Origin: a virus
Direction: 5' to 3' (one strand)
Virus record (IMG/VR): IMGVR_UViG_3300025141_000188
Coordinates: 1-45,586 of that record
DNA length: 45,586 nt
This document shows positions 1,948 to 45,586 of this stretch, piece by piece. Within the stretch, counting starts at the first letter, position 1; every line of letters begins with the position of its first letter. The notes under the pieces were generated by a model, which was not told the origin of the DNA, ran no database searches, and saw nothing but the letters and a program-made list of their open reading frames with translations. Made by a program: the position numbers and the translations under genes.

Positions 1948-2155
1948 CGGCGATTTAAAAAGGTTGTTCAGAATGCATTTAAGAATGTCGGCTTACGGGG
2001 ATTTAAGAACACCGATATTTTTAAGCACGGAGCAGTACGAAAAGATGGATAGGCGTAAATTAATCACAGCGTACAGTACAGGAAAGCACTGTCTATTTGG
2101 GCGAAGAGTTGTTGTTATTGATGACGGGGGTCAGAATGAAGTTAACAAAAGTTGA
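1931..2155 (+). CDS. Hypothetical protein, 74 aa, TTG start
   Basis: I do not recognise this protein. The start is TTG at 1931, supported by a strong purine-rich Shine-Dalgarno (GAGGAGGTGA) inside the 3' end of the primase gene. The product is basic and soluble, with no membrane segment. It overlaps the primase gene upstream and the dUTPase gene downstream (20 bases), which fits a translationally coupled early operon. The non-ATG start makes the call less certain than for its neighbours, but the ribosome site and tiling position favour a real gene. Confidence 0.6.
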   Translation: MELVHNGDLKRLFRMHLRMSAYGDLRTPIFLSTEQYEKMDRRKLITAYSTGKHCLFGRRVVVIDDGGQNEVNKS

Positions 2156-3854
2156 AACAGAAGACGGGAAGAAGTGGCGAATTGATTACAGGCCTACAAA
2201 GGAAGGTGATATTCACATATTGCAGGGTTACAGCGGAGCCGTTGCGCACGTATGTAATCAGCCAGGCTATCACGATCACCTTGAAGCGGTGATGATTGAG
2301 ATTGAGGAGTTTGAGGTATCTAGTCATGAAGTGAAGACATTAGAAATAGATAGCAGCCTTATTTCATCGATATATGAAATACCTCAAGACGTTACACCGC
2401 CAGATCCATACACCGAAGGAAAAGAATTCGAACTAAAAATAAAACCAGGAGAAATTAACGTGACAAACACTAAAATAAATCACAAATGCCCTAAGTGCGA
2501 TTACGACGAGTCAAAAAGCGAATTAAAACCGCTTAAGTATAAGAAATTTAATAATCACTTCACCGGGTGCCCTATTTGTGGGTGTGAGCTTTCGGTTGAG
2601 AAGTTTGAGGAGGATTTTAATTACTCTCTCATATACAACCCTATCTACAACGATATCCTTGCTCATGCAACGATAACTCCAACCAGCAAGCGGGCCGAAT
2701 TCTGGAGTGCCTGCGAGACATACAACAAGGTTTATGATTTTTTGAAATCCAAAGGATTCCAAGGCGATTTTTTGGATTTCGATTTCGGGTCGTCTACTGA
2801 CGGTAAAAAAATAATTATTGATAACAATGTCGAGGATTTTATGCTTTGGGCAAAAGCCGAAGGCATTGATTATAGGGAGATGGATGGCTACAAGGATTAC
2901 ATAAAAAGAGTCAGGAGCAACCCAGAAACCGACGTTGCTGAGACAAAATTCAGCACAGCTAATGGGGAGGTAGTCTGGCCTTCGCCCAACCCAAAAGAAA
3001 CAACCACCTTCAAAATATTTTTCGAGGGTTCTGGCGACAAGGAATACAAGTTATGGGCGAGCCATGATTTCCTCACTGCTGAGGATAGCTATATAAAGAA
3101 AATAATATTTGGAAACTTTGAAGGCGCCGATGGTCTGGAGTGGATGACTTCTGCAGATTCTATGTATTTGGTTATTCATAAGTTTGAGAATTCAATTAGT
3201 GTGTATGAGAACCCGCTCGATAAGGCCATAAGGGAAGCGGATCTTCTTTATAATAAGGCCGTTAGAAGCAGACTGCAGCCAGACGAGGACGGGAATATTA
3301 CATGGACGTCACCATTTATGTTTTCTGACAAGCCAGACCCTTTGGAGATAACCGACCTTAAGTTTGATTGGGTATTCCCAACACCGTCGTCTTCAGAGCC
3401 AGTCAAACCTTCGGTATGCATAGCCCTAGCCCACGAAGACGGCAAGTTTCCTCAGCGTCAGAAAGACGGAGACGCGGGCCTTGATTTGTTTCTGCGTGAC
3501 TGCAAGGGTGAGCCTTCGCCTACGGGCGCGTGGACTATTCGTCCGGGCCATCGTAAAAAATTCCTTGTTGGCGTTAAAACCGAGTTTCCGAAAGACATGG
3601 TTGCTTACATAAAACCTAGATCTGGCCTTGCTGCTAATCACGGCATTGACGTTCTGGCTGGCACTATTGATTCGAATTTCCGTGGCGAGTTATGTGTGTG
3701 CTTAATAAATCACGGGCATCAGTCGTACACGTTCGAGAAAGGCGAGCGTATAGCGCAGATTGTTTTCCATCAGATTGTGCGTGATGTTGTCGAGGTTGAA
3801 TTTCTATCGGATAGTGATCGAGGTGAAAGCGGATTTGGGGAGAGTGGGAAATGA
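2136..3854 (+). CDS. dut: dUTPase with long zinc-finger-containing N-terminal extension
   Basis: The last ~140 residues form a complete trimeric-type dUTP diphosphatase, which hydrolyses dUTP to dUMP and PPi and keeps uracil out of phage DNA. All five motifs are visible: DAGLDL (I), PRSGLA (II), GTIDSNFRGE (III, with Phe for the usual Tyr), GERIAQIVF (IV) and RGESGFGESG (V, with ESG for the usual STG). A typical enzyme is about 150 aa; this protein is 572 aa. The ~430-residue extension carries a CPKC...CPICGC zinc-ribbon-like motif near residues 110-150 and is otherwise unrecognised. ATG at 2136 is chosen because GGGGGT lies just upstream; an in-frame upstream ATG at 2097 lacks this support. 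ATGA overlap with the next gene. Confidence 0.9.
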   Translation: MKLTKVETEDGKKWRIDYRPTKEGDIHILQGYSGAVAHVCNQPGYHDHLEAVMIEIEEFEVSSHEVKTLEIDSSLISSIYEIPQDVTPPDPYTEGKEFELKIKPGEINVTNTKINHKCPKCDYDESKSELKPLKYKKFNNHFTGCPICGCELSVEKFEEDFNYSLIYNPIYNDILAHATITPTSKRAEFWSACETYNKVYDFLKSKGFQGDFLDFDFGSSTDGKKIIIDNNVEDFMLWAKAEGIDYREMDGYKDYIKRVRSNPETDVAETKFSTANGEVVWPSPNPKETTTFKIFFEGSGDKEYKLWASHDFLTAEDSYIKKIIFGNFEGADGLEWMTSADSMYLVIHKFENSISVYENPLDKAIREADLLYNKAVRSRLQPDEDGNITWTSPFMFSDKPDPLEITDLKFDWVFPTPSSSEPVKPSVCIALAHEDGKFPQRQKDGDAGLDLFLRDCKGEPSPTGAWTIRPGHRKKFLVGVKTEFPKDMVAYIKPRSGLAANHGIDVLAGTIDSNFRGELCVCLINHGHQSYTFEKGERIAQIVFHQIVRDVVEVEFLSDSDRGESGFGESGK

Positions 3855-5496: not shown

Positions 5497-5526
5497 AAGG
5501 CCTACCTAGGTGGGCCTTTATATTGC
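5497..5526 (+). terminator. Hairpin terminator closing the early operon
   Basis: A 9-bp stem (5497-5505 with 5510-5518, one T-G wobble) around a CTAG loop is followed by TTTATATT. The T tract is interrupted, so termination may be partial. It separates the early operon from the separately promoted acr-type operon. Confidence 0.6.
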
Positions 5527-5588: not shown

Positions 5589-5617
5589 TTGCATTACTGA
5601 AACAGTTTCACTATTAT
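5589..5617 (+). promoter_or_regulatory. Sigma-70-type promoter of the acr-like operon
   Basis: TTGCAT (5589-5594), a 17-base spacer and TATTAT (5612-5617), with the first start codon 32 bases beyond. It is close to the E. coli-type consensus and lies in an AT-rich stretch, as expected of a strong immediate-early promoter. Confidence 0.75.
5598..5610. promoter_or_regulatory. Perfect palindromic operator inside the acr-like promoter
   Basis: TGAAACAGTTTCA is a perfect 6+1+6 inverted repeat lying wholly between the -35 and -10 boxes, where a bound dimer would block RNA polymerase. In known anti-CRISPR operons the Aca HTH protein represses from inverted repeats in the promoter. Here the HTH product of the third gene (6359-6610) is the obvious candidate ligand. 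That link is inference. Confidence 0.7.
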
Positions 5618-5632
5618 ATACCCATACACAAC

Positions 5633-5652
5633 GCAAGAGGAAAACAAAATGT
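5633..5652 (+). repeat. Duplicated ribosome-binding/start segment, copy 1
   Basis: The 20 bases GCAAGAGGAAAACAAAATGT cover the Shine-Dalgarno and ATG of the first gene of the operon. They recur exactly at 5920-5939 over the start of the second gene. Confidence 0.85.
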
Positions 5653-5891
5653 ACAACGAAGCCTTAAAAGCAATTAAGTCTTATAAAAACAATAAAGTGA
5701 TAATGGACTTTGTTACTAAAGAAGCTCTTGAGAAAACAGCATCTGATATTCGCGAAAAAACTGGCTCAGGTACAACTTCAAAAGCTGTAGAACTTTTGAT
5801 GATAAAAAATAAAGAGATCGAAAAGCGAGTTAACGATTATATAAATTCAGGGCTTATTGGTTGCTACATGGCATCATTTAAAACAGCTTAA
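5649..5891 (+). CDS. Unknown 80-aa protein, first gene of acr-like operon (candidate anti-CRISPR)
   Basis: No recognised family. The product is small, Lys-rich and apparently all-helical, with a charged helix (VELLMIKNKEIEKRVNDYI) near residues 47-65, no membrane segment and no obvious zinc ligands. It is the first gene after the strong promoter at 5589, with AGAGG 8 bases before its ATG. It shares an exact 20-base start segment with the AcrIF11-like gene 44 bases downstream. Anti-CRISPR genes typically cluster as short ORFs ahead of an HTH aca gene, so guilt by association makes this a candidate anti-CRISPR. The basic charge argues against a DNA-mimic mechanism. A ribbon-helix-helix-like regulator is an alternative. 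Confidence 0.8.
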   Translation: MYNEALKAIKSYKNNKVIMDFVTKEALEKTASDIREKTGSGTTSKAVELLMIKNKEIEKRVNDYINSGLIGCYMASFKTA

Positions 5892-5919
5892 CAACACTAA
5901 AAAGTTAATCAAAAATAAA

Positions 5920-5939
5920 GCAAGAGGAAAACAAAATGT
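5920..5939 (+). repeat. Duplicated ribosome-binding/start segment, copy 2
   Basis: Exact repeat of 5633-5652, here over the start of the AcrIF11-like gene. The match suggests that the two genes were joined by duplication or recombination at their translation-start regions and are translated at similar rates. Confidence 0.85.
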
Positions 5940-6346
5940 TCCACACTAGCCCAAACAAAATAACCGAAATAAATAATTTAGGAATTGCTGGCGATTGTTT
6001 GTTTTTTTCTGACAACGTTTATGTCATGACTGAAGCGGAAAGCGTTTATGTTTATGAAGCGGACTTTGATTGTATAAGAGTTTGGCAACTCCACGACGAA
6101 GAAATAATCGAAGAGATAGCAGACAACTTTGGTTGCTCAATCGAAACCGCCGAAGGTCTTTTAGATGGAAGTGAATGTGAATGGGAACAAGAATCATGTG
6201 ACGCCGACATGTCATGGTGGCTACAAGGTAAGCGTGGCGAATGTGCAAAAAAAATGGGTTTCGACGGGTGCGAAGATGAAGACGAGCAAGGAACTGTTTA
6301 CATTATCCCGATGAGCGGACGCGAAAACGAGTTAAACTTAATATAA
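5936..6346 (+). CDS. AcrIF11-like ADP-ribosyltransferase, putative type I-F anti-CRISPR
   Basis: 136 aa, acidic. It shows the layout of the AcrIF11 family as I recall it: N-terminal FHTSP (residues 2-6), then I-N-x-x-G, then LFFSDNVYVMT (22-32), a Cys-x-x-x-TAE-x-L segment (66-75), KKMGFDG (105-111) and C-terminal DEQGT-x-Y-I-I-P-M (116-126). Characterised AcrIF11 is an ADP-ribosyltransferase that uses NAD to modify Cas8f of the type I-F Cascade and blocks target DNA binding. The DEQGT acidic pair (Asp116/Glu117) lies where the family's catalytic acid is expected. Context agrees: strong own promoter, short operon, HTH gene immediately downstream, terminator. It could instead modify another host protein. 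Confidence 0.78.
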   Translation: MFHTSPNKITEINNLGIAGDCLFFSDNVYVMTEAESVYVYEADFDCIRVWQLHDEEIIEEIADNFGCSIETAEGLLDGSECEWEQESCDADMSWWLQGKRGECAKKMGFDGCEDEDEQGTVYIIPMSGRENELNLI

Positions 6347-6358
6347 GGAGCAGAACGC

Positions 6359-6610
6359 ATGACACCTTCACAAATATGCAAAGAGCACGGGATAACGCTT
6401 GTTAAGTTATCCCGCTCGCTCGGATATAAAGAAAACGGGCAGCCGGTTGTATCTGAAAGAACGCTAATCAACTGGCACAAAAACAAGCCTTTACTATTTA
6501 AAGCTGTAGTTCTAGGCCAGTCAAAACTTATAAATAGTTCCAAACAACCAAAACCCCTGCCGGCTTGCCAACCTCGGATTTCAGTACAAAAACCACACAA
6601 TCCCGATTAG
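6359..6610 (+). CDS. Small HTH protein, candidate anti-CRISPR-associated (Aca) repressor
   Basis: 83 aa. Residues about 4-50 form a helix-turn-helix of the phage regulator type: ICKEHGITLVKLSRSLGY, then SERTLINWHKNKPLLFKAVV, where the second helix would be the recognition helix. The Pro-rich tail is probably disordered. It starts 12 bases after the AcrIF11-like gene, with AAGGAG upstream, and ends inside the terminator hairpin. A small HTH gene directly downstream of an acr gene is the defining context of aca genes. I cannot match it to a numbered Aca family. It may bind the palindrome at 5598-5610 and switch the operon off after the initial burst. Confidence 0.8.
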   Translation: MTPSQICKEHGITLVKLSRSLGYKENGQPVVSERTLINWHKNKPLLFKAVVLGQSKLINSSKQPKPLPACQPRISVQKPHNPD

Positions 6611-6626
6611 CCTCGGGATTTTTTTT
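6599..6626 (+). terminator. Strong rho-independent terminator
   Basis: An 8-bp perfect stem (AATCCCGA with TCGGGATT), a 6-base loop and eight T residues. The stop codon of the HTH gene lies in the loop. It cleanly isolates the acr-like operon from the late region. Confidence 0.92.
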
Positions 6627-7005
6627 AAAAAAAGTGGCGCGTATTTCATTTGTTGACTTAGAACTTATGCTAGCCCTCACTAACCTTTTTTTTGATCAGT
6701 ACGAAATATAGCCAGCATAAAAAGCAATCTATTTTATCTTAAATTCCCACCCTGACAGTGGAGTGGTTCAGAAAGGTGGTGCAGCTGAAGACCCCATTCC
6801 CTTTATATAATAACTACTATCACTAGTATAATATTATTATAAAATAAATATATTATATTGTATAAATAGTATACTGTATAAATAATACGCGTTATATTTT
6901 ATAAAAGTTAGAGATAGCCCGATCACTAGTGCACTCTGGTGCAGTTATTCGGTGTATAAAAAATGATCTGCAAATAGGGGGTTGACGCGGTTGCCTAGGG
7001 ATGCC
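6627..7005. other. Non-coding AT-rich region upstream of the late genes
   Basis: About 380 bases without a supported gene. Bases 6801-6907 are almost pure A/T, with a direct repeat TGTATAAATA (6859-6868 and 6875-6884) and a repeated ATCACTAGT (6819-6827 and 6922-6930). A small inverted repeat TGCAC-TCTG-GTGCA lies at 6930-6943. The composition suits a DNA-unwinding element (replication origin) or a late promoter region. No well-spaced -35/-10 pair stands out; TTGACT at 6653 has no partner. Function is inference. Confidence 0.6.
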
Positions 7006-19337: not shown

Positions 19338-21060
19338 GGTTGAGACGCTAAGAACGCCGCAAGTTGCAGTAAGCGCTGCGGCCAATGTTCAGCAGAGCTT
19401 TGATACTCGCGGGGCTTTTGGTGAGGATATCGCCAGAGCCGGTCAGCAGATAGGCGGACAGATAGCAAACTATGCTCTCGAGCAGAAAGCCAAAGACGAC
19501 GCTGCAGCGGTAAAGAATGCGATAAGCGAATACCGCAAGAGCATTAATAATCGCACGTATCTTGATGAAGACAGTTATTACAATCGCCAGGGTAAGGACG
19601 CTTATGATTCATACGAGCCTATGGCTTCTGAACTTGATGATATACGCAAGCTTATTGGTGAAAAGTTAGCGCCAGGCAGGCAGCAAGAATCGTTTAGTGA
19701 GATGTCGCAAGGCTTCCTTGACCGGGAACTGGATAGCATGTCTCGGCACGCCTCTAAGGGTCGCATGCAGTGGCAGAATGAATCCGACTCAGAAGCTGTA
19801 AATCAGGCTGTCGAGGACGGCTCTCTACGCTACACGAACAACTCTACCGAAGTTGAGCAGGTCAAAGCCCTGACTAAAAACCTGGCGGCAAGAAATGGTT
19901 GGTCTCCAGAGAGGACAGAAAACGAAACATTATCTAAGCTTTCAACGATGCATAAGCAGGCCATCGATAACATGATGACCTCCGAGCCACTTGCTGCGGA
20001 AAAATACTTCGATGATCACAAAGACCAAATCCTACCATCCATGCATGACGACATCAAAAGGCAGATCAAAAATGCAGATGACGGCATGCTGGCTCAAAGT
20101 ACTGCTGATGCTGCTCTTGCTTTTGACAGCCTTACTAGCGCCCGCGACTTTGTAAAAGAGTCCATCACGGACAACCCAAAGGCTAGACAGAAAGCTCTGT
20201 CTATGGTTGAGCATGAATTCAGAGTGCTTGACCATGCTAAGCGAACCGAGCAGGCCGAGATTGTTGATACTGTAGGAAAACACCGCTTGGATGGTGGGTC
20301 TGTTCAGAGATGGGCGATCAACAACCCTTCTGAGTGGGATAAGCTTGACTTTAAGCAGCAGGAGTCGCTACTTAAAACGGGTAAGGTTGAGACCGACTGG
20401 GAAGTCTACTCTGAATTGGAAGACAAGATTGAAGCTGGAGATATTGAACGTGAGGCAGATATAAGATCGTTCGGCTCCCAGATATCACCGGTTCACCTCA
20501 ATACTCTGGCTCGCGAGTTTAAGAAGCGCAAGCAGATATCTAATGCACAGCTTAGGCGCTTATATTCGGATTATGGCGGCAAGGTTGGCACTCCTTCAAA
20601 GCCGTTGAAAGGCGAAAAGGCTGACCAATGGAATGCGTTCAAAGATTACATAACCAATAACCTAGAAGAAACCGCTAGGCCTGAAGATCTTGATAAGTGG
20701 GCTTCGCGATGGTTTACATCGGGCGAGGCTCGAGGCTCTAAGTGGTATCACGTCTTTGGCGATACTGACGACACTCTAGGCGAGGCTATAACGGCTGGGC
20801 GAGCGGATAACTTCGTCATAGACCTACCGGAAGATGTTGATCCAGAAGAGATGCGATCAATGTTCGCGACTCTTGGCGTAGAGGGTGATGTTAATGATAG
20901 TTATTGGAAGCTGTACGTCCCTGCTGCTGATTGGCTGGAAGCGCACAAAATGCAAGTGAATAATGCACATGTTGGCGCGGTAATATTCCTTAGAAACCAA
21001 GGCCTTAAGGTAAACGCTGACAATATTGATTACGTTATCCAAAGCTCGAGGACCGACTAG
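19330..21060 (+). CDS. Internal virion (ejection) protein, gp15-like
   Basis: About 576 aa, almost entirely alpha-helical and charged, with Ala/Gln-rich early helices (GEDIARAGQQIGGQIANYAL). Size and position match the gp15-like ejection protein. I chose GTG 19330, which overlaps the previous stop and has AAGGGGG about 6 bases upstream. ATG 19291 in the same frame is possible but has no comparable ribosome site. During infection such proteins leave the capsid and form the periplasmic DNA conduit. Confidence 0.8.
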   Translation: MPKVETLRTPQVAVSAAANVQQSFDTRGAFGEDIARAGQQIGGQIANYALEQKAKDDAAAVKNAISEYRKSINNRTYLDEDSYYNRQGKDAYDSYEPMASELDDIRKLIGEKLAPGRQQESFSEMSQGFLDRELDSMSRHASKGRMQWQNESDSEAVNQAVEDGSLRYTNNSTEVEQVKALTKNLAARNGWSPERTENETLSKLSTMHKQAIDNMMTSEPLAAEKYFDDHKDQILPSMHDDIKRQIKNADDGMLAQSTADAALAFDSLTSARDFVKESITDNPKARQKALSMVEHEFRVLDHAKRTEQAEIVDTVGKHRLDGGSVQRWAINNPSEWDKLDFKQQESLLKTGKVETDWEVYSELEDKIEAGDIEREADIRSFGSQISPVHLNTLAREFKKRKQISNAQLRRLYSDYGGKVGTPSKPLKGEKADQWNAFKDYITNNLEETARPEDLDKWASRWFTSGEARGSKWYHVFGDTDDTLGEAITAGRADNFVIDLPEDVDPEEMRSMFATLGVEGDVNDSYWKLYVPAADWLEAHKMQVNNAHVGAVIFLRNQGLKVNADNIDYVIQSSRTD

Positions 21061-23180
21061 TGCCGACAGTAAATGTTGATTATTCTAAGGTTGATATATC
21101 TAAACTCGAGAAAGATCAGTCACCTAGAGAGAGTAAGCTTAGAGAGTCGTGGAGTACCACAAAAGACACACCAGCCCCTCAGGCTGCGCACATCTCAAAG
21201 CTTGCTAGTGATACCGCCAATCCTGTCAGTCTCGTCAAAACTGAGACCAAGAAGATTGAGAACGACAAGCGATTTCAGGATATAGATAAGGCCCTGTCGA
21301 ACGCTCCAAAAACTCAGCAGTGGTTTTCTAACCCGGAGAATATGGCTCAGGCTAAAGATGATGCGGAGCGGCTTGGATGGTTTGAGGGCATATTTAAAAA
21401 CCTTGGCAAGTCAATGGGCGAGTCCCTAAAGCAGTCGACCACAGGCGTCGCTATGGGAAGCCTTGATGCTACTGCTGATTCGATCGACGACTTCGTTCCT
21501 ATGGGGGCTCTACCGATGCAGGCTATGCCGGCTAGCATGGCTCCGATAATGTCGCTTGAGTTAACCTCTAATATTGGTGTTGAGTCTGACGAAGATCTCG
21601 CAGAGGCTAAAGACGAGGCCAAGACACAGCTAGTCATGGACTACATGCAGAGCGAAGAAGCCATTAAACAGATGACGCCGCAGGATTTAAGCATCGTGCA
21701 GAAGGGTATTCGAGGCGGGTTCCAATCATTGGTTATGCAGGCTCCAGGTTTTGCAGCTTCGCTACTGACTAAAAGCCCAGGGCCTATGCTGTCAATGATG
21801 ACCAGCCAGGTCGGCTCAGAGTCGTACGCAAAAGCTCGTGCTGCGGGAAAATCTGTTGATCAGGCGATATTGTTCTCGGGCACCCAGGCGGCAATAGAAT
21901 TTGCAACCGAGAAAATCCCGGCGACCGCCATGGTTAAGATGATGGGGCCTGGGTGGAAGAAAGAGCTGTCTAGGTTTGCTGCCGGAGAGATCCTTGGCGA
22001 GCAGGTTGCAACTATAGCTCAAAGCATTAATGAATATGCTCACGGCCTTGATGATGAGATGGCAAAAGCCAAGACCCTCGAAGATGTCGCCAGAATCCAA
22101 GCGGAGCGCCAAGCGGTAACGCTGATAAGCACGATTGTAAGCGGTGGAACTCAGGCGGGCGTTGTGTCAGGTATAGGCGCTATAGCAGAGAAGCGCGCAG
22201 CATCTGAAACCGATCAGGCAAGGCTTGATGAGATAGCTGAGAATGCCGGCAAGGTTTCCCTTAAGTCGATGAACCCTGAAGCTATGCGCGACGTTATCCG
22301 TCAGCAATCTGATGGGCAAGTGGTGTACCTTGATCCTATCGCTGCGACTGAGTATTTCCAGGGCGACAACGTAACCGAGGAGGATTTGCAAAAAGACTCA
22401 GTTAAGTTAATCGTCGACGATATCCCGAAGGCCTTGGATGAAGGTAGGGACATCGAAATACCTATGAGTGCCTATACGACGGATATAGCTGGCACTAGCA
22501 TGGATGATTCACTTCGCTCTAGTATGCGAATAAATCCAACAATACCGACACCTGACGATATCAATAATCATAACTTAGAGCAGGAGTTTCAGGACGCCCT
22601 CAACGAAAGTGAAGAGGTAAGGTCGTCAGAGCAAGAAGTTTTTGATGATGTTAAGCAGCAGCTGACAGAAGTTGGCTTTAGGCCTGAAATAGCTGATCAA
22701 AATGCATTCGTTATTGAGGCGTTTTTTAGAACCCAGTCTCAGCGCGTAGGAGTCACCCCCAAAGAATTATACGATAATTACGGCCTACAAATACAAAATG
22801 AGACCCAAGAAATTATCAAAGGTGGGAACGTCTTTTCGCAGCTTGAAAGTCAGATAGAGTCTGCTCGAGAAGGGCAAGATAATGAAATGTCTACCATTTT
22901 GGAAAATGCCGGGATAGATATCGCCCAGGCAAACGAGGATATCATCTCGCAGCTTGGCGACACAAGTGGGAACGAAATATTTTTTAGACGTCAAGAGCCT
23001 GAAGAGGTTACAATAAGTGATCCGTTAGAGGGTGGAGATCAGAGCTGGCGAGACACTGATGTGCAAGCTACCCTAGAGGATGGCACAACCGAGACAGTAA
23101 AGGCGGGCGTAGCATTTGACGCCATAAACGCGCGAAAGAAAAGCGCGCAGCAAATTCTGGATTGTATCCGTGCGTCTTAA
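21060..23180 (+). CDS. Large internal virion protein 1
   Basis: 706 aa, GTG start overlapping the previous stop (TAGTG). Mostly helical. A hydrophobic, small-residue-rich stretch near residues 215-255 (GFQSLVMQAPGFAASLL, then PGPMLSMMTSQVG) and another near 350-375 could insert into membrane. The C-terminus (VKAGVAFDAINARKKSAQQI) has the typical end of phage polyvalent ejection proteins, so it looks complete. It would be ejected with the genome. A second, larger ejection-type protein lies 5.4 kb away at 28591, separated by adhesin-like genes, which is unusual. Confidence 0.78.
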   Translation: MPTVNVDYSKVDISKLEKDQSPRESKLRESWSTTKDTPAPQAAHISKLASDTANPVSLVKTETKKIENDKRFQDIDKALSNAPKTQQWFSNPENMAQAKDDAERLGWFEGIFKNLGKSMGESLKQSTTGVAMGSLDATADSIDDFVPMGALPMQAMPASMAPIMSLELTSNIGVESDEDLAEAKDEAKTQLVMDYMQSEEAIKQMTPQDLSIVQKGIRGGFQSLVMQAPGFAASLLTKSPGPMLSMMTSQVGSESYAKARAAGKSVDQAILFSGTQAAIEFATEKIPATAMVKMMGPGWKKELSRFAAGEILGEQVATIAQSINEYAHGLDDEMAKAKTLEDVARIQAERQAVTLISTIVSGGTQAGVVSGIGAIAEKRAASETDQARLDEIAENAGKVSLKSMNPEAMRDVIRQQSDGQVVYLDPIAATEYFQGDNVTEEDLQKDSVKLIVDDIPKALDEGRDIEIPMSAYTTDIAGTSMDDSLRSSMRINPTIPTPDDINNHNLEQEFQDALNESEEVRSSEQEVFDDVKQQLTEVGFRPEIADQNAFVIEAFFRTQSQRVGVTPKELYDNYGLQIQNETQEIIKGGNVFSQLESQIESAREGQDNEMSTILENAGIDIAQANEDIISQLGDTSGNEIFFRRQEPEEVTISDPLEGGDQSWRDTDVQATLEDGTTETVKAGVAFDAINARKKSAQQILDCIRAS

Positions 23181-28373: not shown

Positions 28374-28594
28374 TACTTAACCCGATAGCAATAGCGACAG
28401 GAGGTTATGTACCTAATAACTATCCGCTGGCTATTGCTTCGGACGGTTATATTGATTTGGATGGCGACGGGCCTCCTCCTGATGTAACAAAGTCATACGG
28501 CTACTTAGAGCCTAGACTTAAAAAGAAAAAATACGACGACGATGAAGTCGTTCTAGCCTGCATTAAAGCATTTATGAATGAGGTGCTAAATTGA
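28370..28594 (+). CDS. Small protein, 74 aa
   Basis: Unrecognised. A short hydrophobic and Gly/Tyr-containing N-terminal half (ATGGYVPNNYPLAIASDGYI) is followed by an acidic DLDGDG turn, a Lys run (LKKKKYDDDE) and a C-terminal helix. ATGA overlap with the PDR gene upstream and TTGA overlap with the large ejection gene downstream. The tight tiling supports a genuine gene, possibly a chaperone or connector for one of the flanking structural proteins. Confidence 0.7.
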   Translation: MILNPIAIATGGYVPNNYPLAIASDGYIDLDGDGPPPDVTKSYGYLEPRLKKKKYDDDEVVLACIKAFMNEVLN

Positions 28595-31500
28595 GTTTTG
28601 CCAAGTGTTCAAGACAGTCAAACATGTCGTCGGAAGACCTCGCCGATATTCGCGAGTACATGCAAAACGCAGAGACCGAAGAAGCTGGCGTGCAAGCTTA
28701 CATCGACGACCTTGATGTAGATATTCAAGACCTTCGCCGACAAACAGGAACTGATCTGGTAACGGAAACTCGAGAGCGCGACCCTGAGGAAATTAAAGGG
28801 GAAACTGTCGACCTTATAAATCAAGCCAGAGAGCAGAGGCTTGCGCAAGGAAAATCAAAACCTCGCGGCTACTTCAACGCCGACACGAATGAGATAACGC
28901 TTACGCCTAAGGCAGACCTATCTACATTTGTGCATGAGTCTGCGCACTTCTTCTTGGAAATCTACCGAGACCTTGCCGATCGATCACCTGAAATAAAATC
29001 AGACCTAGAAATAATTAATAATTGGGCGGAATCGCAAGGCAAGAAATCAGATCGAGATGTTCACGAGCTTTTTGCTAGCAGCTTTGAAAATTATTTAAGA
29101 GAGGGAAAGTCGCCTAGCCAAACATTAAAAACTGTATTTGATCGATTTAAGCAGTGGCTAACGTTCGTCTATAAAAATATGTCCGACGTATTTGGCCGCA
29201 ATGGCATGCAGGTGCCAGAGTTCTCGCCAGAAGTTCGAGATGTATTTGATAGGCTGTTGGCTACTCAGCAAGAAATAGAAGTCGCACAGAGGGAGCAGTA
29301 CGGGCCGTCTACGGTTGACGCCTTCGAGATGACACCTAAGCAAGCTTTAGAATATCAAGTTGCCTCTGATGCTGCAGCCCTAGAGTCTGATGCTGAAATA
29401 ACAAAGTCAGCTATGGACGAGATACGCAGGCAAAAAACAAAGTTCTGGCAGGGTGAGCTCAAAAAGACAAAACAGGAGGTCGAGCAGGAGATATCAGCGC
29501 GACCTGAATACAAGGCTAAGGACTACTTAACCAAAGCCCCTGAGGGCGAGCCTACAATAAAGATTAACTCTGAATACCTGAAAGAGGTCTACGGCGAAAA
29601 GGTCCGCCGAAAGCTCCAGCATCAAAGCTCAAAAGACGGAAGCCACCCGGATGACGTCGCGTCGATATTTGGCTATAACACTGGCGACGAGCTCGTCAAT
29701 GCGCTGAATGATACGATGACGAAGGCGCAGCGTGAAACGTTCGTGAATGAAACTGCTAACAACCGCATGAAAGATATCCACGGCGACATGATGACGGATG
29801 GAACCATTCGGGCTGAGGCTCAGGACGCTGTGCACAACACTATGCAGGCCAAGAAACTTGCGCTCGAGATCGACATCCTTAACAGTAAAGTAGGCAAGAA
29901 CTTCGCGAAGTCCGGCACCAATGCCAGCGTTAGAGCTTCATATAAATTCGCCGCTGAAAAGGTTATCTCAAATACACCTATATCAAAGATAAAGCCTAAC
30001 GCTTACTTGCGTAACGAGCAAAAGCACGGGCGAGAGGCTATACGCCATGCAGCTGACGGTAAGTGGGTGCAAGCTCGGGCATCGAAAGAACGCCAGTTAA
30101 AACAGTTCTATCTGTATCGCGCGGCTCATGATGCGCTAGTTAAAGCAGATAAGGATCGAACCCGCATCAACAAGATGCAGACGACGAAATATAATGCTGG
30201 TCAGGTTCATAAAGATTACATCCAGGCGCTTAAGCTGCTTCTTAGTGCTTACGACACCAGGAAGAATCCGGCAGATACTCAAGGCAGACTAAAAGCTGTA
30301 AACGATTTCATTGCTGCTCAGAAAGAGGCTAACCCTGATCTGGTTGCCGGCTCGCTTCTGTCTGAGATTGTAGACTGGCGAAACATGAGCCCGAACGATT
30401 TGAGCAGTCTGCGAAATGCTGCAGAGAACTTGCTTAAGATTGGCAAGGCCAACAGCAACGAGCAGAAAGCCGAGTTTGCAAAGTTAAGAAATAGTATTGT
30501 TGACCATATAGAAGCCAATACCAAAAACCCTAAGATTGATACTCACTCATCTTCGGTGATATCTGAAGTCAAAAGGTGGGGCGCTGAGTTTGACGCGTCA
30601 CACACCAAGCTCGAAACTCTAATACTTAACGCTGACGGCGGAGAGCGTGGGCCGCTTTATAATGCAGTATTTAAGCCGCTTTGGGATGCTCAGCTTGCAG
30701 AGGTCTCACGAGGAGAGGCTGAGCACAAAGAGCTTGCTGAACTGTTCGCTGATTTCGATTACATGTTTAACAGCATGCGCGCTTCTCTGCGTGATGTTGG
30801 CCTGTCTAAATATGTTGATACGTACGATATGCCAGTGGGTGGTATGGGTGGGACTATATCACTAACTCGTGGCGAGCGTTTAGTCTTGGCTTTGAACTGG
30901 GGCAACGAAGGAAACCGCGAGGCTCTTCGCTTGCAGCAGAACAGAGCTATGGATGATGCGCAGGTTTTGGCGGCCATAAGCACGCTAAACAAAGAAGAGC
31001 TGCAGCTTGTTAATAAGCTGTGGGAATATGTTGATAAATTCTACCCTGAGGTGTCTAAGGTTGAGCAAGAAGCCACGGGTATTGCGCCTGCAAAAGTTGA
31101 GGCTTCTCCGTTCGAAGTTAATGGCGTCCAGATGCGTGGCGGCTACTACCCGCTAATGGGTGACTCAAACACCAGTTTCAAACAGTCAATGCAGGATATT
31201 GATCAGCGCGCCGAGAAAATGAAAATGGGCGGCTCGGTGAGGTCGTCTACTAAACATGGCTCGACTATTGAACGTGTTGATTTCGGCGGTAAAGATGTAA
31301 CGCTATCGATTGATGGTTTGTTTAAGCATGTCGACGGCGTGGTTCATGATATCAGCCACCGGAAAGCGGTTATGGACTCAGACAAGATACTGCGAAGCGA
31401 GCCAATAAAAAGCGCTATATCTGGAAAGGTCGGCAAGGCTGGCTATAAGGCTATCAACGATACGATAACTCGATTAGCTGCAGGACAGATACACCCTTCA

Positions 31501-32607
31501 GACTTGGCTGCTTTAAATAAGATTTTCCGATGGTCCCGGATGGCTACATCATTCGGAGCCATGGGATACAGCGTTCGAACGGCTCTAGCTAACGTTACCG
31601 GTGTATTCACTTCGGCGGCTGAGGTAGGGAACAGGCGTATGGCTACGTCGATCATGAACCAGATGTCTAACCCTAACCGCACTGCGCGAGAGGTTGAGGC
31701 AAAGTCTAAGTATATGACCAATCGAGCCAAGACCTTGAACCGTGACATCTATGAGGTTCTAAGAAACCTCAAAGGTAACAGCAAGTGGAACACAGTTAAG
31801 GCAAATGCTTTCTGGATGGTGGCTCGCGTCGATGCAATGGTTTCTCGAGCGACCTGGATGGCGGCATATGACAAGGCTCAAGCCTCAGGAATGACGGAGA
31901 AGGAGTCGATATTTGAGGCAGATCGGACGGTTGTCAGAACGCAATCTAGCGGGCTTAAAATTGATTTGTCTGCAGTTGAGGATACCAGCGAAGCCATCAA
32001 AGCTATATCGCCGATGTACACCTATTTTAACGCCGTCCTGAATATGGTTAAGCGAAAGAAAATACAGCTTCGCCATGGCAAGATAAACCGCTGGGAGTAC
32101 TTCAACGCTCTGGCTATGATCCTAGTTGTTCCTGCGTTGGTTGAAGAATTGATGTTTGGCGGCGCCGATGAGGATGAAGATTCTGAAGGCATGGCCAAGC
32201 GATACACAGGAGCCGTTGCAAGCTTCTGGGCCGGACAGTGGTTTGGTGTTAGGGAGCTTGGTAGTTGGGTTAAATACGGTCAGACATTCGACACCCCTAT
32301 GCAGTCCACGCTTACAGCGCTACCCATGGCAGTAACTGAGATGGCAAAGATTGCAGCCAGCGAAGAGGAAGATTTTGATAAGGCGACATTGAGAGCTTTA
32401 ACTCAGGCCGCGCCGGTTCTCGGATTCCCTTCTGGCGCGCAGGTCAACAGAACAATCGGCTTCCTTATGGACCTTGAAGAGAGCGGCGAGGATATCTCGT
32501 TGTACAATGTTCTGCTTAACCCGGATAACTCATTTGGCTTCAAGGCGATCGTCACCGGAAAGCTCGATAAGAAAACAGACCTTGAGCGGGTCGTAAATCC
32601 TGACTAA
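28591..32607 (+). CDS. Giant internal virion (ejection) protein with zincin-like motif
   Basis: 1338 aa, TTG start with GAGGTG upstream. A metallopeptidase-like site lies at HESAH (residues 115-119), with a probable third ligand at Glu159 in VHELFASSFENYL; this pairing recurs in phage polyvalent proteins. The remainder is highly helical. The C-terminal third contains FGAMGYSVRTALANVTG, the phrase SPMYTYFNAVLNMVKRKKI, and a hydrophobic helix ALAMILVVPALVEELMF (about 1170-1186), typical of the membrane-penetrating end of gp16-like ejection proteins. Expected to enter the cell with the DNA. The protease could trim partner proteins or envelope proteins (inference). Internal transglycosylase motifs were not seen. 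Confidence 0.85.
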   Translation: MSFAKCSRQSNMSSEDLADIREYMQNAETEEAGVQAYIDDLDVDIQDLRRQTGTDLVTETRERDPEEIKGETVDLINQAREQRLAQGKSKPRGYFNADTNEITLTPKADLSTFVHESAHFFLEIYRDLADRSPEIKSDLEIINNWAESQGKKSDRDVHELFASSFENYLREGKSPSQTLKTVFDRFKQWLTFVYKNMSDVFGRNGMQVPEFSPEVRDVFDRLLATQQEIEVAQREQYGPSTVDAFEMTPKQALEYQVASDAAALESDAEITKSAMDEIRRQKTKFWQGELKKTKQEVEQEISARPEYKAKDYLTKAPEGEPTIKINSEYLKEVYGEKVRRKLQHQSSKDGSHPDDVASIFGYNTGDELVNALNDTMTKAQRETFVNETANNRMKDIHGDMMTDGTIRAEAQDAVHNTMQAKKLALEIDILNSKVGKNFAKSGTNASVRASYKFAAEKVISNTPISKIKPNAYLRNEQKHGREAIRHAADGKWVQARASKERQLKQFYLYRAAHDALVKADKDRTRINKMQTTKYNAGQVHKDYIQALKLLLSAYDTRKNPADTQGRLKAVNDFIAAQKEANPDLVAGSLLSEIVDWRNMSPNDLSSLRNAAENLLKIGKANSNEQKAEFAKLRNSIVDHIEANTKNPKIDTHSSSVISEVKRWGAEFDASHTKLETLILNADGGERGPLYNAVFKPLWDAQLAEVSRGEAEHKELAELFADFDYMFNSMRASLRDVGLSKYVDTYDMPVGGMGGTISLTRGERLVLALNWGNEGNREALRLQQNRAMDDAQVLAAISTLNKEELQLVNKLWEYVDKFYPEVSKVEQEATGIAPAKVEASPFEVNGVQMRGGYYPLMGDSNTSFKQSMQDIDQRAEKMKMGGSVRSSTKHGSTIERVDFGGKDVTLSIDGLFKHVDGVVHDISHRKAVMDSDKILRSEPIKSAISGKVGKAGYKAINDTITRLAAGQIHPSDLAALNKIFRWSRMATSFGAMGYSVRTALANVTGVFTSAAEVGNRRMATSIMNQMSNPNRTAREVEAKSKYMTNRAKTLNRDIYEVLRNLKGNSKWNTVKANAFWMVARVDAMVSRATWMAAYDKAQASGMTEKESIFEADRTVVRTQSSGLKIDLSAVEDTSEAIKAISPMYTYFNAVLNMVKRKKIQLRHGKINRWEYFNALAMILVVPALVEELMFGGADEDEDSEGMAKRYTGAVASFWAGQWFGVRELGSWVKYGQTFDTPMQSTLTALPMAVTEMAKIAASEEEDFDKATLRALTQAAPVLGFPSGAQVNRTIGFLMDLEESGEDISLYNVLLNPDNSFGFKAIVTGKLDKKTDLERVVNPD

Positions 32608-38371: not shown

Positions 38372-39187
38372 TTAAATGATATCGTCGTCACTTGGCGGAG
38401 GCGGGTTGCCTTCGTCGTGAATAACTTCGGCTTCGATTACGTCACCCATAACGGCCTGTGCCGCTTTTGTTTGCTGCTTGGGTTCCTCGGTCTTAATATC
38501 TACGGTTTCAACTTCCTCGGCCTGGGACAGGTCATAATTTTCGTTGTCATTATCAAACATTTGATCGATGTCAGCGCTTGATGGCAGATATTTGGCGATG
38601 CGACGTAGAACTGTTTTCTTTGCCATCTCCTCAGGCCACTGCTTCCATGGGCTGCTTCCCGAGCTAGCTGAACGGCTTACAGACTTAACTTTATCTATCT
38701 GTTTCATGTTCATGATCTCTACAACGTAGCTGCCGTCTTTCATCTTGGCCACGGCATAAACCCCAATCATCTCTCCCCGATCTCCGAACCATTCGGGGCT
38801 ATGTTTTGGAACGTCATCCATTGCAGGGTTATATTTAAATGGGTCGTTATGGTGAACTGTTTCAGCAGTTATAGTTGAAATCTGTCCGCTGTTTCTAAGC
38901 TTCTTGAGAACTCCATTTACCATCGGCATGTATTGCGCTTGGCCTTTAAACTGGACCAAAGCGGCTTCACGCCCATCTATAACTAGCCCGTCCTGTGCTG
39001 CCTTTTGGCAGGAGTTTAATATAGACTGTCGGTTGCACTTGAGTATATCCGGGTTGTTTTGCACAGCGCCTACAATAGTGCGCATGAACTTTTTAACTTC
39101 TATATGAGCCGGTAGAACAGACTCAAAAGTTTTTTTGTATGGCGCTAACTCTCTAGCAAATTGATCCACTGGGGTTAATTGTGTCAT
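38372..39187 (-). CDS. recT: RecT-family single-strand annealing protein
   Basis: 271 aa. It anneals the 3' overhangs produced by the partner exonuclease. The family signature is clear: RQSILNSCQKAAQDGLVIDGREAAL near residues 53-77, then YMPMVNGVLKKLRNSGQISTI and WKQWPEEMAKKTVLRRIAKYLPSS (about 180-203). The C-terminal ~50 residues are a Glu/Pro-rich disordered tail ending PPPPSDDDII, which resembles the acidic tip of SSB proteins that recruits replication enzymes. That parallel is only visual. It starts 3 bases after the exonuclease gene stop. Confidence 0.94.
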   Translation of the reverse strand: MTQLTPVDQFARELAPYKKTFESVLPAHIEVKKFMRTIVGAVQNNPDILKCNRQSILNSCQKAAQDGLVIDGREAALVQFKGQAQYMPMVNGVLKKLRNSGQISTITAETVHHNDPFKYNPAMDDVPKHSPEWFGDRGEMIGVYAVAKMKDGSYVVEIMNMKQIDKVKSVSRSASSGSSPWKQWPEEMAKKTVLRRIAKYLPSSADIDQMFDNDNENYDLSQAEEVETVDIKTEEPKQQTKAAQAVMGDVIEAEVIHDEGNPPPPSDDDII

Positions 39188-39190
39188 TTT

Positions 39191-40132
39191 TTATTTTTCC
39201 TCTTTTTTAGTTACTTTAAATATCCGATAGCCTTTGCGGCCTCCGATTTCTTGCCCGACCATATCCTCGGTTATTAACTTTGGAGGCGTGTCTTTTGTTA
39301 CTCCGCAGGATATTGAAAAGTTGCCAGCTCGAACTTTGCTGGCAGTGCCAATCTTCTGAAGCATTACAGCCTTTACCGATTGCTGCTGGGCTTTCAGAAA
39401 TTTAATTTCATTTCCCCATTTCTGATAATTCTCGAGCATCGCAATAGATTCGTCACAATCATCATCTTCTTCGGTGTCATATATCTCGCCCGCAACAGCG
39501 TTACTATAAAGCTCTGATATTATTTCAGCGTCGCGCCTGAAGTTTATTTCAGGCTCTCGGTTATTATCAAACCCGTCCCAAAATTCAGCTATCTTTTTTT
39601 CTAGCGCCCTACCAAAGCCTTCGTCTTTATCTCTAAAAATAAGTTTTAATTCGTTGCCGCCGACAAGGCACGCAATTATTGTCCCTGGCGCATTACAAAC
39701 ATGCATTTGATGCTGCACTTGTGTTTCGATATGCACAGGCGCTTCGAATTCCGTCCACTTATCTCGGTACTGAATGAAGTCAACATTCTTGCATTCGATT
39801 AACCATCCCGCGTATTCGCCTTCGGTTACAATCCAGTCGAACGACGACCCCATTCTTACCTTTGGCAGGCATACATAGTCTTTGAATTCTTGCCCTTCGC
39901 ACATTATTTCGTCTAGCGCTAGCCGAGCAATAACAGGCTCTATTAATCGTCCAACCTTCATTCTAAAATTGTCAGATATACCATAAGGCTCGTCGGCTTT
40001 TTTGCGATGGTATAGTTCGAATTCTGTTGAATATGGCGACAGCCCGAACAATGCCGGCGACTCTGTACTGTTAATGTTTTGATGGCGAAGCTTTAGCCAT
40101 TCTGATTCGTCGATATCTTTATGAGTTTCCAT
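39191..40132 (-). CDS. YqaJ-type viral recombinase/exonuclease
   Basis: 313 aa. A PD-(D/E)XK 5'-to-3' exonuclease that resects double-strand ends and works with RecT, like lambda Exo/Beta. Visible motifs: conserved Glu65 in VGRLIEPVIA, Asp99 in GSSFDWIV, the E-x-K pair Glu113/Lys115 in LIECKNV, and the helix QVQHQMHV with its conserved Gln residues. The N-terminus with STESPALFGLSPYSTEFELY is also typical. It is the first gene of the leftward operon, 40 bases from the promoter at 40173-40201. Confidence 0.92.
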   Translation of the reverse strand: METHKDIDESEWLKLRHQNINSTESPALFGLSPYSTEFELYHRKKADEPYGISDNFRMKVGRLIEPVIARLALDEIMCEGQEFKDYVCLPKVRMGSSFDWIVTEGEYAGWLIECKNVDFIQYRDKWTEFEAPVHIETQVQHQMHVCNAPGTIIACLVGGNELKLIFRDKDEGFGRALEKKIAEFWDGFDNNREPEINFRRDAEIISELYSNAVAGEIYDTEEDDDCDESIAMLENYQKWGNEIKFLKAQQQSVKAVMLQKIGTASKVRAGNFSISCGVTKDTPPKLITEDMVGQEIGGRKGYRIFKVTKKEEK

Positions 40133-40211: not shown

Positions 40212-40448
40212 TTAAATAATTCCAAACCCTTGATAGTAAAGCTTAACTCCAGCCTTCTCGATAACAGTCTCAAGATCCTCATCTAGGAACTTAGCGATAG
40301 AAACAGCTTCCTTTAATTGTAGCCTTCTATCACCATTCAAAATGTTAGTTACGGCGCTAGGGTCTAGCTTCATATGTTTGCTTAAGTCTCTTTGTGACTT
40401 TCTCTGGTCTCTCAGCTTATCAACAAACCATTTTTTATCTACTGACAT
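40212..40448 (-). CDS. Cro/CI-like HTH repressor
   Basis: 78 aa from ATG 40448, with AGGTGA upstream; a GTG at 40457 would sit on that ribosome site. XRE-type helix-turn-helix: RKSQRDLSKHMKLDPSAVTNILNG spans the two recognition helices, followed by the usual EAVSIAKFLDEDLETVIEKAG. There is no C-terminal dimerisation/cleavage domain as in lambda CI, so it resembles Cro or a short repressor. It lies between the leftward and rightward promoters and probably controls both, and itself. No integrase is present, so it may time early genes rather than maintain lysogeny. Confidence 0.88.
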   Translation of the reverse strand: MSVDKKWFVDKLRDQRKSQRDLSKHMKLDPSAVTNILNGDRRLQLKEAVSIAKFLDEDLETVIEKAGVKLYYQGFGII

Positions 40449-40470
40449 AATGCTCACCTAAAAATAAATA

Positions 40471-40499: not shown

Positions 40500-40529
40500 T
40501 TGCCTAAACCACAACAAAGTGAGGCTATC

Positions 40530-40709
40530 ATGCCAGGTATAAAAAAAGATTTACAGCCAAAAGTTCTAGAAGAGTTGCGCCGTCACGGCAATGTAAGCAG
40601 GGCCGCAAGAGCTTGCGGAATCAATCGTAGAACAATTAGCAAGTGGGCTAATAACGACAACGTTTTCAAAGCTGCTTTTGATGCAGCTAAATCTGAGGGA
40701 AAAAAGTAA
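40530..40709 (+). CDS. Small HTH protein, 59 aa
   Basis: ATG 40530 with GTGAGG upstream; a TTG at 40500 overlaps the -10 box and was not used. The compact helix-turn-helix GNVSRAARACGINRRTISKW resembles the DNA-binding module of small terminase or homeodomain-like regulators. As the first gene under the rightward promoter it is in the cro position, though its HTH is of a different type from the divergent repressor. It may act as a second early regulator. Confidence 0.78.
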   Translation: MPGIKKDLQPKVLEELRRHGNVSRAARACGINRRTISKWANNDNVFKAAFDAAKSEGKK

Positions 40710-44877: not shown

Positions 44878-45586
44878 CAATCGATACCTCAAAAATCAAA
44901 GATCTAGATATATCTGAGATTATTGGCAGGTATATCGAGCTAAGACCTAACGGCCCAGAGTTTCAGGCTTGCTGCCCGTTTCATGATGAGAAGACGCCTT
45001 CGTTTACAGTTGTGCCAAATAAATCGATGTATCACTGTTTCGGCTGTGGAGCGCACGGCGATGCAATTGATTTTGTTATGGAGTACACCGGCTGCAGTTT
45101 TAAAGAAGCTGTTAAATCAATAGACGGCAGAATAGAAACTGACGCGCCAGTTAAAAAGCAAACGAAACGTTTTGATCCGTACGAAAAATATAAGCCATCA
45201 GGTAAGCCTAAATCACTTCCAGTTGTTGGTCAGAAATTAAAAATAATAAACCCCAAGCGTGACGGGAAAATATGGGAAGTTGAGCCGGTTGCTGTTTATC
45301 CTTATCTGCAGGGCTGCGTTATTCGGGTCATGGTAAAAGGCAAAAAAGTCACCCCTATGATTCGGTGGTGCGAAGGTCCGCAAGGTGAGGGATGGCACAC
45401 GTATCCATTTAGCGAGCCGCGCGAACTATATGGGCTTTCCGAATTGATGGTAGAAGGGCGACAGGTTGTTGTTGTTGAGGGTGAAAAAGCCCGCGACGCA
45501 GTTCAGGCTGCCGGAGACAATAAGCTTGCTGTAATTTCTTGGGCTGGCGGTACTAATGGTCTCGACAAGACTGACTGGTCTCCATT
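44874..45586 (+). CDS. Primase-helicase, N-terminal part (CHC2 zinc finger + start of TOPRIM)
   Basis: Start of the gene that continues at base 1. ATG 44874 overlaps the HTH gene stop (ATGA). The CHC2-type zinc finger is complete: Cys34, His37 (CCPFHDEKTPSF), Cys55 and Cys58 (HCFGCGAHGD). A Lys-rich linker and the first TOPRIM block (VVVVEGEKARD) follow. The last 371 bases duplicate bases 1-371, so residues from 115 on are shared between the two partial copies; one difference in this copy gives Arg instead of Gln just before the TOPRIM glutamate. The gene runs off the window end only because the circle was opened here. Confidence 0.93.
   Translation, partial: MTIDTSKIKDLDISEIIGRYIELRPNGPEFQACCPFHDEKTPSFTVVPNKSMYHCFGCGAHGDAIDFVMEYTGCSFKEAVKSIDGRIETDAPVKKQTKRFDPYEKYKPSGKPKSLPVVGQKLKIINPKRDGKIWEVEPVAVYPYLQGCVIRVMVKGKKVTPMIRWCEGPQGEGWHTYPFSEPRELYGLSELMVEGRQVVVVEGEKARDAVQAAGDNKLAVISWAGGTNGLDKTDWSP
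45216..45586. repeat. Terminal overlap, right copy
   Basis: 371 bases matching 1-371 with six substitutions, five of them silent. Removing one copy gives a unit genome of 45,215 bp. Confidence 0.93.

Follow-up and report, generated by a model that had tools for sequence, protein, structure and literature searches.

AcrIF11 is a family of enzymes that disable bacterial CRISPR immunity through ADP-ribosylation of one of the CRISPR proteins. Its member AcrIF11Pae1 (structure 6KYF) is reportedly the first AcrIF11 for which modification of Csy1 at N250 was proven. Acr autorepressors, in turn, bind sites of the spacer-palindrome type. Structure 8DWQ is AcrIF11Pae2, in which the double substitutions D146A/E147A and H20A/Y46A each abolish both Csy1 ADP-ribosylation and phage protection; the S22A/E25A variant stays active, so E25 is dispensable, and AcrIF11 structures vary most in their helical region (PMC12421852). 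AcrIF24 has as its operator an inverted repeat that lies within the spacer of the promoter TTGCAT-N17-TATAGT, flanked by the -35 and -10 boxes, as proven by gel shift and reporter assays (PMC9638941). Furthermore, acr loci often hold two to four clustered acr candidates (PMC7648647).

This study describes a three-gene operon in an uncultivated phage genome, which is very probably an acr-aca cassette whose middle gene encodes an AcrIF11-family mono-ADP-ribosyltransferase; its target, activity and repression are proposed by analogy with the systems above.

The phage genome

The window, i.e., the whole stretch of DNA that was analyzed, comprises an entire virus record of IMG/VR and is 45,586 bases long. 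Its two ends, bases 1-371 and 45216-45586, match each other apart from 6 mismatches, and their joint is crossed by a primase/helicase gene, which is split by the cut of the record; because of these two features, the record probably represents a phage genome of about 45.2 kb that maps as a circle and is nearly complete. Among its genes, those for packaging and virion structure have matches in head, connector and tail families. No host can be named, since the large terminase is closest to that of phiV10-like podoviruses (enteric phages) at 54% identity, the primase matches are scattered, and a megablast of 23 kb of the genome against phages gave no match.

RecE/RecT genes are present, and a scan of the ORFs, in which the small ones were covered in part, revealed no integrase. 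RecT/RecE and a Cro/C1-type helix-turn-helix (HTH) gene on the minus strand face a divergent plus-strand HTH gene (38372-40132, 40212-40457 and 40500-40709), a layout that is switch-like even though no integrase was found. A 585-aa ORF at 2097-3854 has a dUTPase domain confined to its last ~140 residues, while its first ~440 residues match nothing convincing. In addition, the ORFs at 21060-23180 and 28591-32607 match the N- and C-terminal parts, respectively, of phrog_9880, a phage family of 2231 positions; several other ORFs lie in between, and a giant protein thus appears to be split into two genes.

The middle gene encodes a new AcrIF11 family member

The middle gene of the operon (5936-6346, plus strand) encodes a protein of 136 aa that can be assigned to the AcrIF11 family with high confidence, on the basis of profile, sequence and model comparisons; it adds one more member to an already known family. 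With NF052490.1, the curated AcrIF11 equivalog of NCBIfam, it scores 117.6 bits, more than twofold above the cut-off of 50, and it matches phrog_11282 with an E-value of 5.9e-43. In phmmer searches, both solved AcrIF11 proteins were matched, namely 8DWQ (labelled 'H3 protein' in its record) at 2.7e-15 over residues 1-133 and 6KYF at 9.3e-5. An AlphaFold2 model of the protein (pLDDT 87.9, pTM 0.82) has the diphtheria-toxin-like ART fold of these two structures, which were the sole matches with E<0.001 in a PDB fold search; the Foldseek E-values were 3.1e-5 for 6KYF and 5.5e-5 for 8DWQ, both with a probability of 1.00, at moderate TM-scores of 0.55 and 0.61. An earlier sequence-only reading of this DNA had called the product AcrIF11-like from three landmark motifs and had named a fold unlike that of an ART as the outcome that would speak against it; the profile score and the fold match bear the assignment out.

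The landmarks are indeed present, i.e., F2-H3-T4-S5-P6 (FHTSP), Y29-V30-M31-T32 (YVMT) and D116-E117-Q118-G119-T120-V121-Y122 (DEQGT-x-Y). In an alignment of seven proteins, H3, S5, Y29, D116, E117, Q118, G119 and Y122 are invariant. Among 21 aligned family members, H3, S5, D116 and E117 remain invariant and Y29 is found in 20; the single exception is a divergent row in which the alignment may be off at this position. According to the phmmer alignment, H20, Y46, D146 and E147 of AcrIF11Pae2, all four of them essential, correspond to H3, Y29, D116 and E117, which are therefore the predicted active-site residues, and the dispensable E25 is replaced by K8. Asp116 and Glu117 had thus been rightly chosen beforehand as key residues for substitution.

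Operon layout and promoter

Three short, co-directional ORFs on the plus strand, at 5649-5891 (80 aa), 5936-6346 (136 aa) and 6359-6610 (83 aa), lie downstream of one gene block and ahead of the terminase genes. They are separated from the former by 165 bp, containing a terminator-like hairpin with a weak T run that closes the upstream block (5497-5518, plus strand; -15.5 kcal/mol, z -2.34), and from the latter by 371 bp. The gap between the middle and third genes is 12 bp. At the distal end, a canonical intrinsic terminator (6599-6630, plus strand) has an 8-bp stem, a 6-nt loop and a T run, with its hairpin at 6599-6620 reaching -10.8 kcal/mol (z -3.69). Both the isolation of this short-gene operon from its neighbors and its terminator, as anticipated from the sequence, are thus upheld, and the arrangement of short co-directional genes ending in a terminator is one that characterizes acr-aca loci. 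The G+C content of the operon stretch is 38-40% as compared with about 47% for most of the genome, which is compatible with an acquired cassette. Because a second IMG/VR contig (L002) carries the whole operon with an identical Acr protein, an assembly artefact is unlikely.

Upstream of the first gene, a candidate promoter, TTGCAT - 17 nt - TATTAT, is located at 5590-5618 (plus strand). The promoter had been described as strong; a candidate does exist, but with 8 of 12 consensus positions it is moderate, and it went unlisted by a promoter scan with a threshold of 9 of 12. Its spacer holds an inverted repeat, the perfect 6-1-6 palindrome TGAAACAGTTTCA (5598-5610; arms TGAAAC and GTTTCA around a single A), which is a candidate operator for the operon's own repressor and of which the genome holds one exact copy. 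For comparison, 19 AcrIF11-family loci, including the window, were examined, 16 of which have a promoter-like site, together with 43 control promoters. Considered alone, the palindrome is unremarkable (p about 0.08), and strong spacer palindromes occur at 8 of the 16 loci versus 3 of the 43 controls (Fisher p 6e-4, an indicative value, as the loci are related); both p-values are indicative rather than exact, as more than one scoring scheme was used. The palindromes vary in sequence from locus to locus, as do the small downstream genes. Six loci (L007, L012, L014, L016, L019 and L037) have differing long palindromes in the promoter spacer upstream of AcrIF11-like genes and differing small genes downstream. 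Each distinct pair of spacer palindrome and small gene may mark a separate Aca family.

The third gene as candidate autorepressor

The third gene (6359-6610, plus strand) encodes a small putative HTH protein of 83 aa, a candidate Aca-type autorepressor. That a small same-strand gene follows the acr gene agrees with the sequence-only reading; its HTH nature, which had been taken as given, is likely rather than proven, with weak matches to transcriptional regulators in PHROG (E 0.02-0.3) and no HTH match in NCBIfam or Pfam. Relatives of the protein occur in marine Vibrio and Pseudoalteromonas phages, one of them annotated as a transcriptional regulator, and the closest lie in phages away from AcrIF11 genes. 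Its structure model is four-helical (pLDDT 75) and gave no significant match in a fold search; a search of solved structures with its alignment returned chance matches alone.

These weak library matches, the lack of a fold match, the occurrence of relatives in other phage contexts and the p of about 0.08 for the palindrome alone would also fit a locus that is not a single regulated acr-aca operon, in which the 83-aa ORF is some unrelated small gene of the phage and the palindrome arose by chance. This alternative is unlikely, although it carries appreciable weight. Against it, the genes share a strand, the 12-bp gap and a common terminator, and the spacer-palindrome architecture is enriched at AcrIF11-family loci. 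Moreover, most AcrIF11-like relatives have a small gene directly downstream, which in A. guerrae belongs to the Aca2/YdiL family (Pfam PF08965, 56.8 bits versus 23.8). The reading of the three genes as one operon is hence mostly supported, and the acr-aca layout draws support from the terminator, the promoter-spacer palindrome resembling the proven AcrIF24 operator and the analogous layouts in relatives. From the enrichment of spacer palindromes, the varied small downstream genes, the Aca2 gene in A. guerrae and the design of the AcrIF24 system, it is plausible that the 83-aa protein is an autorepressor.

The first gene and its duplicated leader

The first gene (5649-5891, plus strand) encodes an 80-aa orphan. 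It has no match in Pfam, NCBIfam or PADLOC and none in phages, IMG/VR yields an identical copy alone, and a search of solved structures matched designed helical proteins alone; PADLOC likewise returned nothing for the six local proteins scanned. The gene is preceded by the leader/ribosome-binding segment GCAAGAGGAAAACAAAATG (5633-5651, plus strand), an identical copy of which precedes the AcrIF11-like gene (5920-5938, plus strand). These two copies of the 19-nt segment are its only matches in the genome at up to 3 mismatches, where 0.02 would be expected, which suggests a duplicated ribosome-binding cassette. RNA-level control at the duplicated leaders was also considered and rejected, both leaders being unstructured.

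Since acr loci often cluster two to four acr candidates (PMC7648647), the 80-aa gene may reasonably be proposed as a second anti-defence gene. A more far-reaching proposal, put forward tentatively, is that this protein acts against CRISPR or another defence in a hitherto undescribed way and is paired with AcrIF11 via the duplicated leader, and that the 83-aa protein founds a new Aca family. If so, this Aca family could be used as bait in marine phages to find further anti-defence genes.

Relatives and the type I-F link

Relatives of the 136-aa protein sit on phages and plasmids of gammaproteobacteria, e.g., in Vibrio anguillarum H20-like phages (63% identity), on a V. chagasii plasmid (64%) and on an Alteromonas plasmid (38%), as well as in Acinetobacter and uncultivated viruses. 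In 22 records of Vibrio anguillarum phages, the AcrIF11-like gene, seen for instance in Vibrio phage VaK (L009, 4001-4626), has no annotation beyond 'hypothetical'. One relative came out of a genome-wide scan; when 369 genomes were sampled from the class to which its genome belongs, that genome was again the sole one with a match. Among 176 Acinetobacter genomes, three harbor a relative, and each of them encodes Csy1 (E<1e-100), while Csy1 above 150 bits is present in 36 of the 176 (hypergeometric p 0.008, based on three genomes). Residue 250 of P. aeruginosa Csy1, the Asn of KPQN, aligns with an Asn in the A. guerrae protein (G001), and the surrounding GGTQPQNVS motif is identical in the other two carriers (G389 and G434). 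These data support a type I-F link for the AcrIF11 family, not for the host of the present phage.

Proposed mechanism

By analogy with AcrIF11, the 136-aa enzyme would use NAD to ADP-ribosylate an asparagine of Cas8f/Csy1 (N250 in Pseudomonas aeruginosa numbering). The modified protein would sit in the assembled type I-F complex, and binding of target DNA would stop; because the enzyme would be catalytic, few molecules may suffice. The 83-aa protein, most likely a small DNA-binding autorepressor, would bind the palindrome in the promoter spacer, switching the operon off after an early burst. The host of the phage would be predicted to possess a type I-F system.

It is improbable that the enzyme is an AcrIF11-family ART that kept its NAD chemistry and lost Cas8f as its target, having been redirected to some other host protein, be it of a different CRISPR type, of a different defence or one targeted in host takeover. 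Such drift in target choice is conceivable, as the helical region is the most variable (PMC12421852), ART folds serve many targets in phages and the present model has weak fold matches to PolyVal ART domains. However, the protein comfortably passes the AcrIF11 equivalog cut-off, its closest solved relative, AcrIF11Pae2, is proven to act against Csy1 (PMC12421852), and Csy1 is present in each of the three Acinetobacter genomes that harbor a relative. It is highly improbable that the protein is a decayed or catalytically dead homologue, given an ORF that is intact in two contigs and the conservation of all essential active-site residues.

Comparison with known systems

The cassette leaves the understanding of AcrIF11 itself unchanged; it extends a known enzymatic anti-CRISPR family to an uncultivated phage whose packaging genes are phiV10-like, and its two neighboring genes, an orphan (80 aa) and a candidate repressor, lend themselves to guilt-by-association discovery. 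The enzyme shares with AcrIF11Pae2 of P. aeruginosa (8DWQ) the fold, the N-terminal FHTSP, YVMT and DEQGT motifs and the four essential residues, but it differs in length (136 aa versus a 167-residue chain) and in having K8 in place of the dispensable E25 (PMC12421852), and the phage and operon partners differ as well. With AcrIF11Pae1 (6KYF), the fold and the catalytic aspartate loop are shared, whereas the sequence is distant (E 9.3e-5; 26% identity over the fold alignment). The Vibrio anguillarum H20-like phage proteins (e.g., VaK_0051, unannotated) are 63% identical, and their loci have in common with the present one a small gene directly downstream and a promoter-spacer palindrome; their downstream gene is a different one, the 80-aa first gene is absent and the phages are of another type. 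Lastly, the acrIF23-acrIF24 promoter has the same TTGCAT -35 box, the same 17-nt spacer and likewise an inverted repeat inside the spacer, although that repeat differs in sequence (8-1-8 arms) and its repressor is the dual-function AcrIF24 (PMC9638941).
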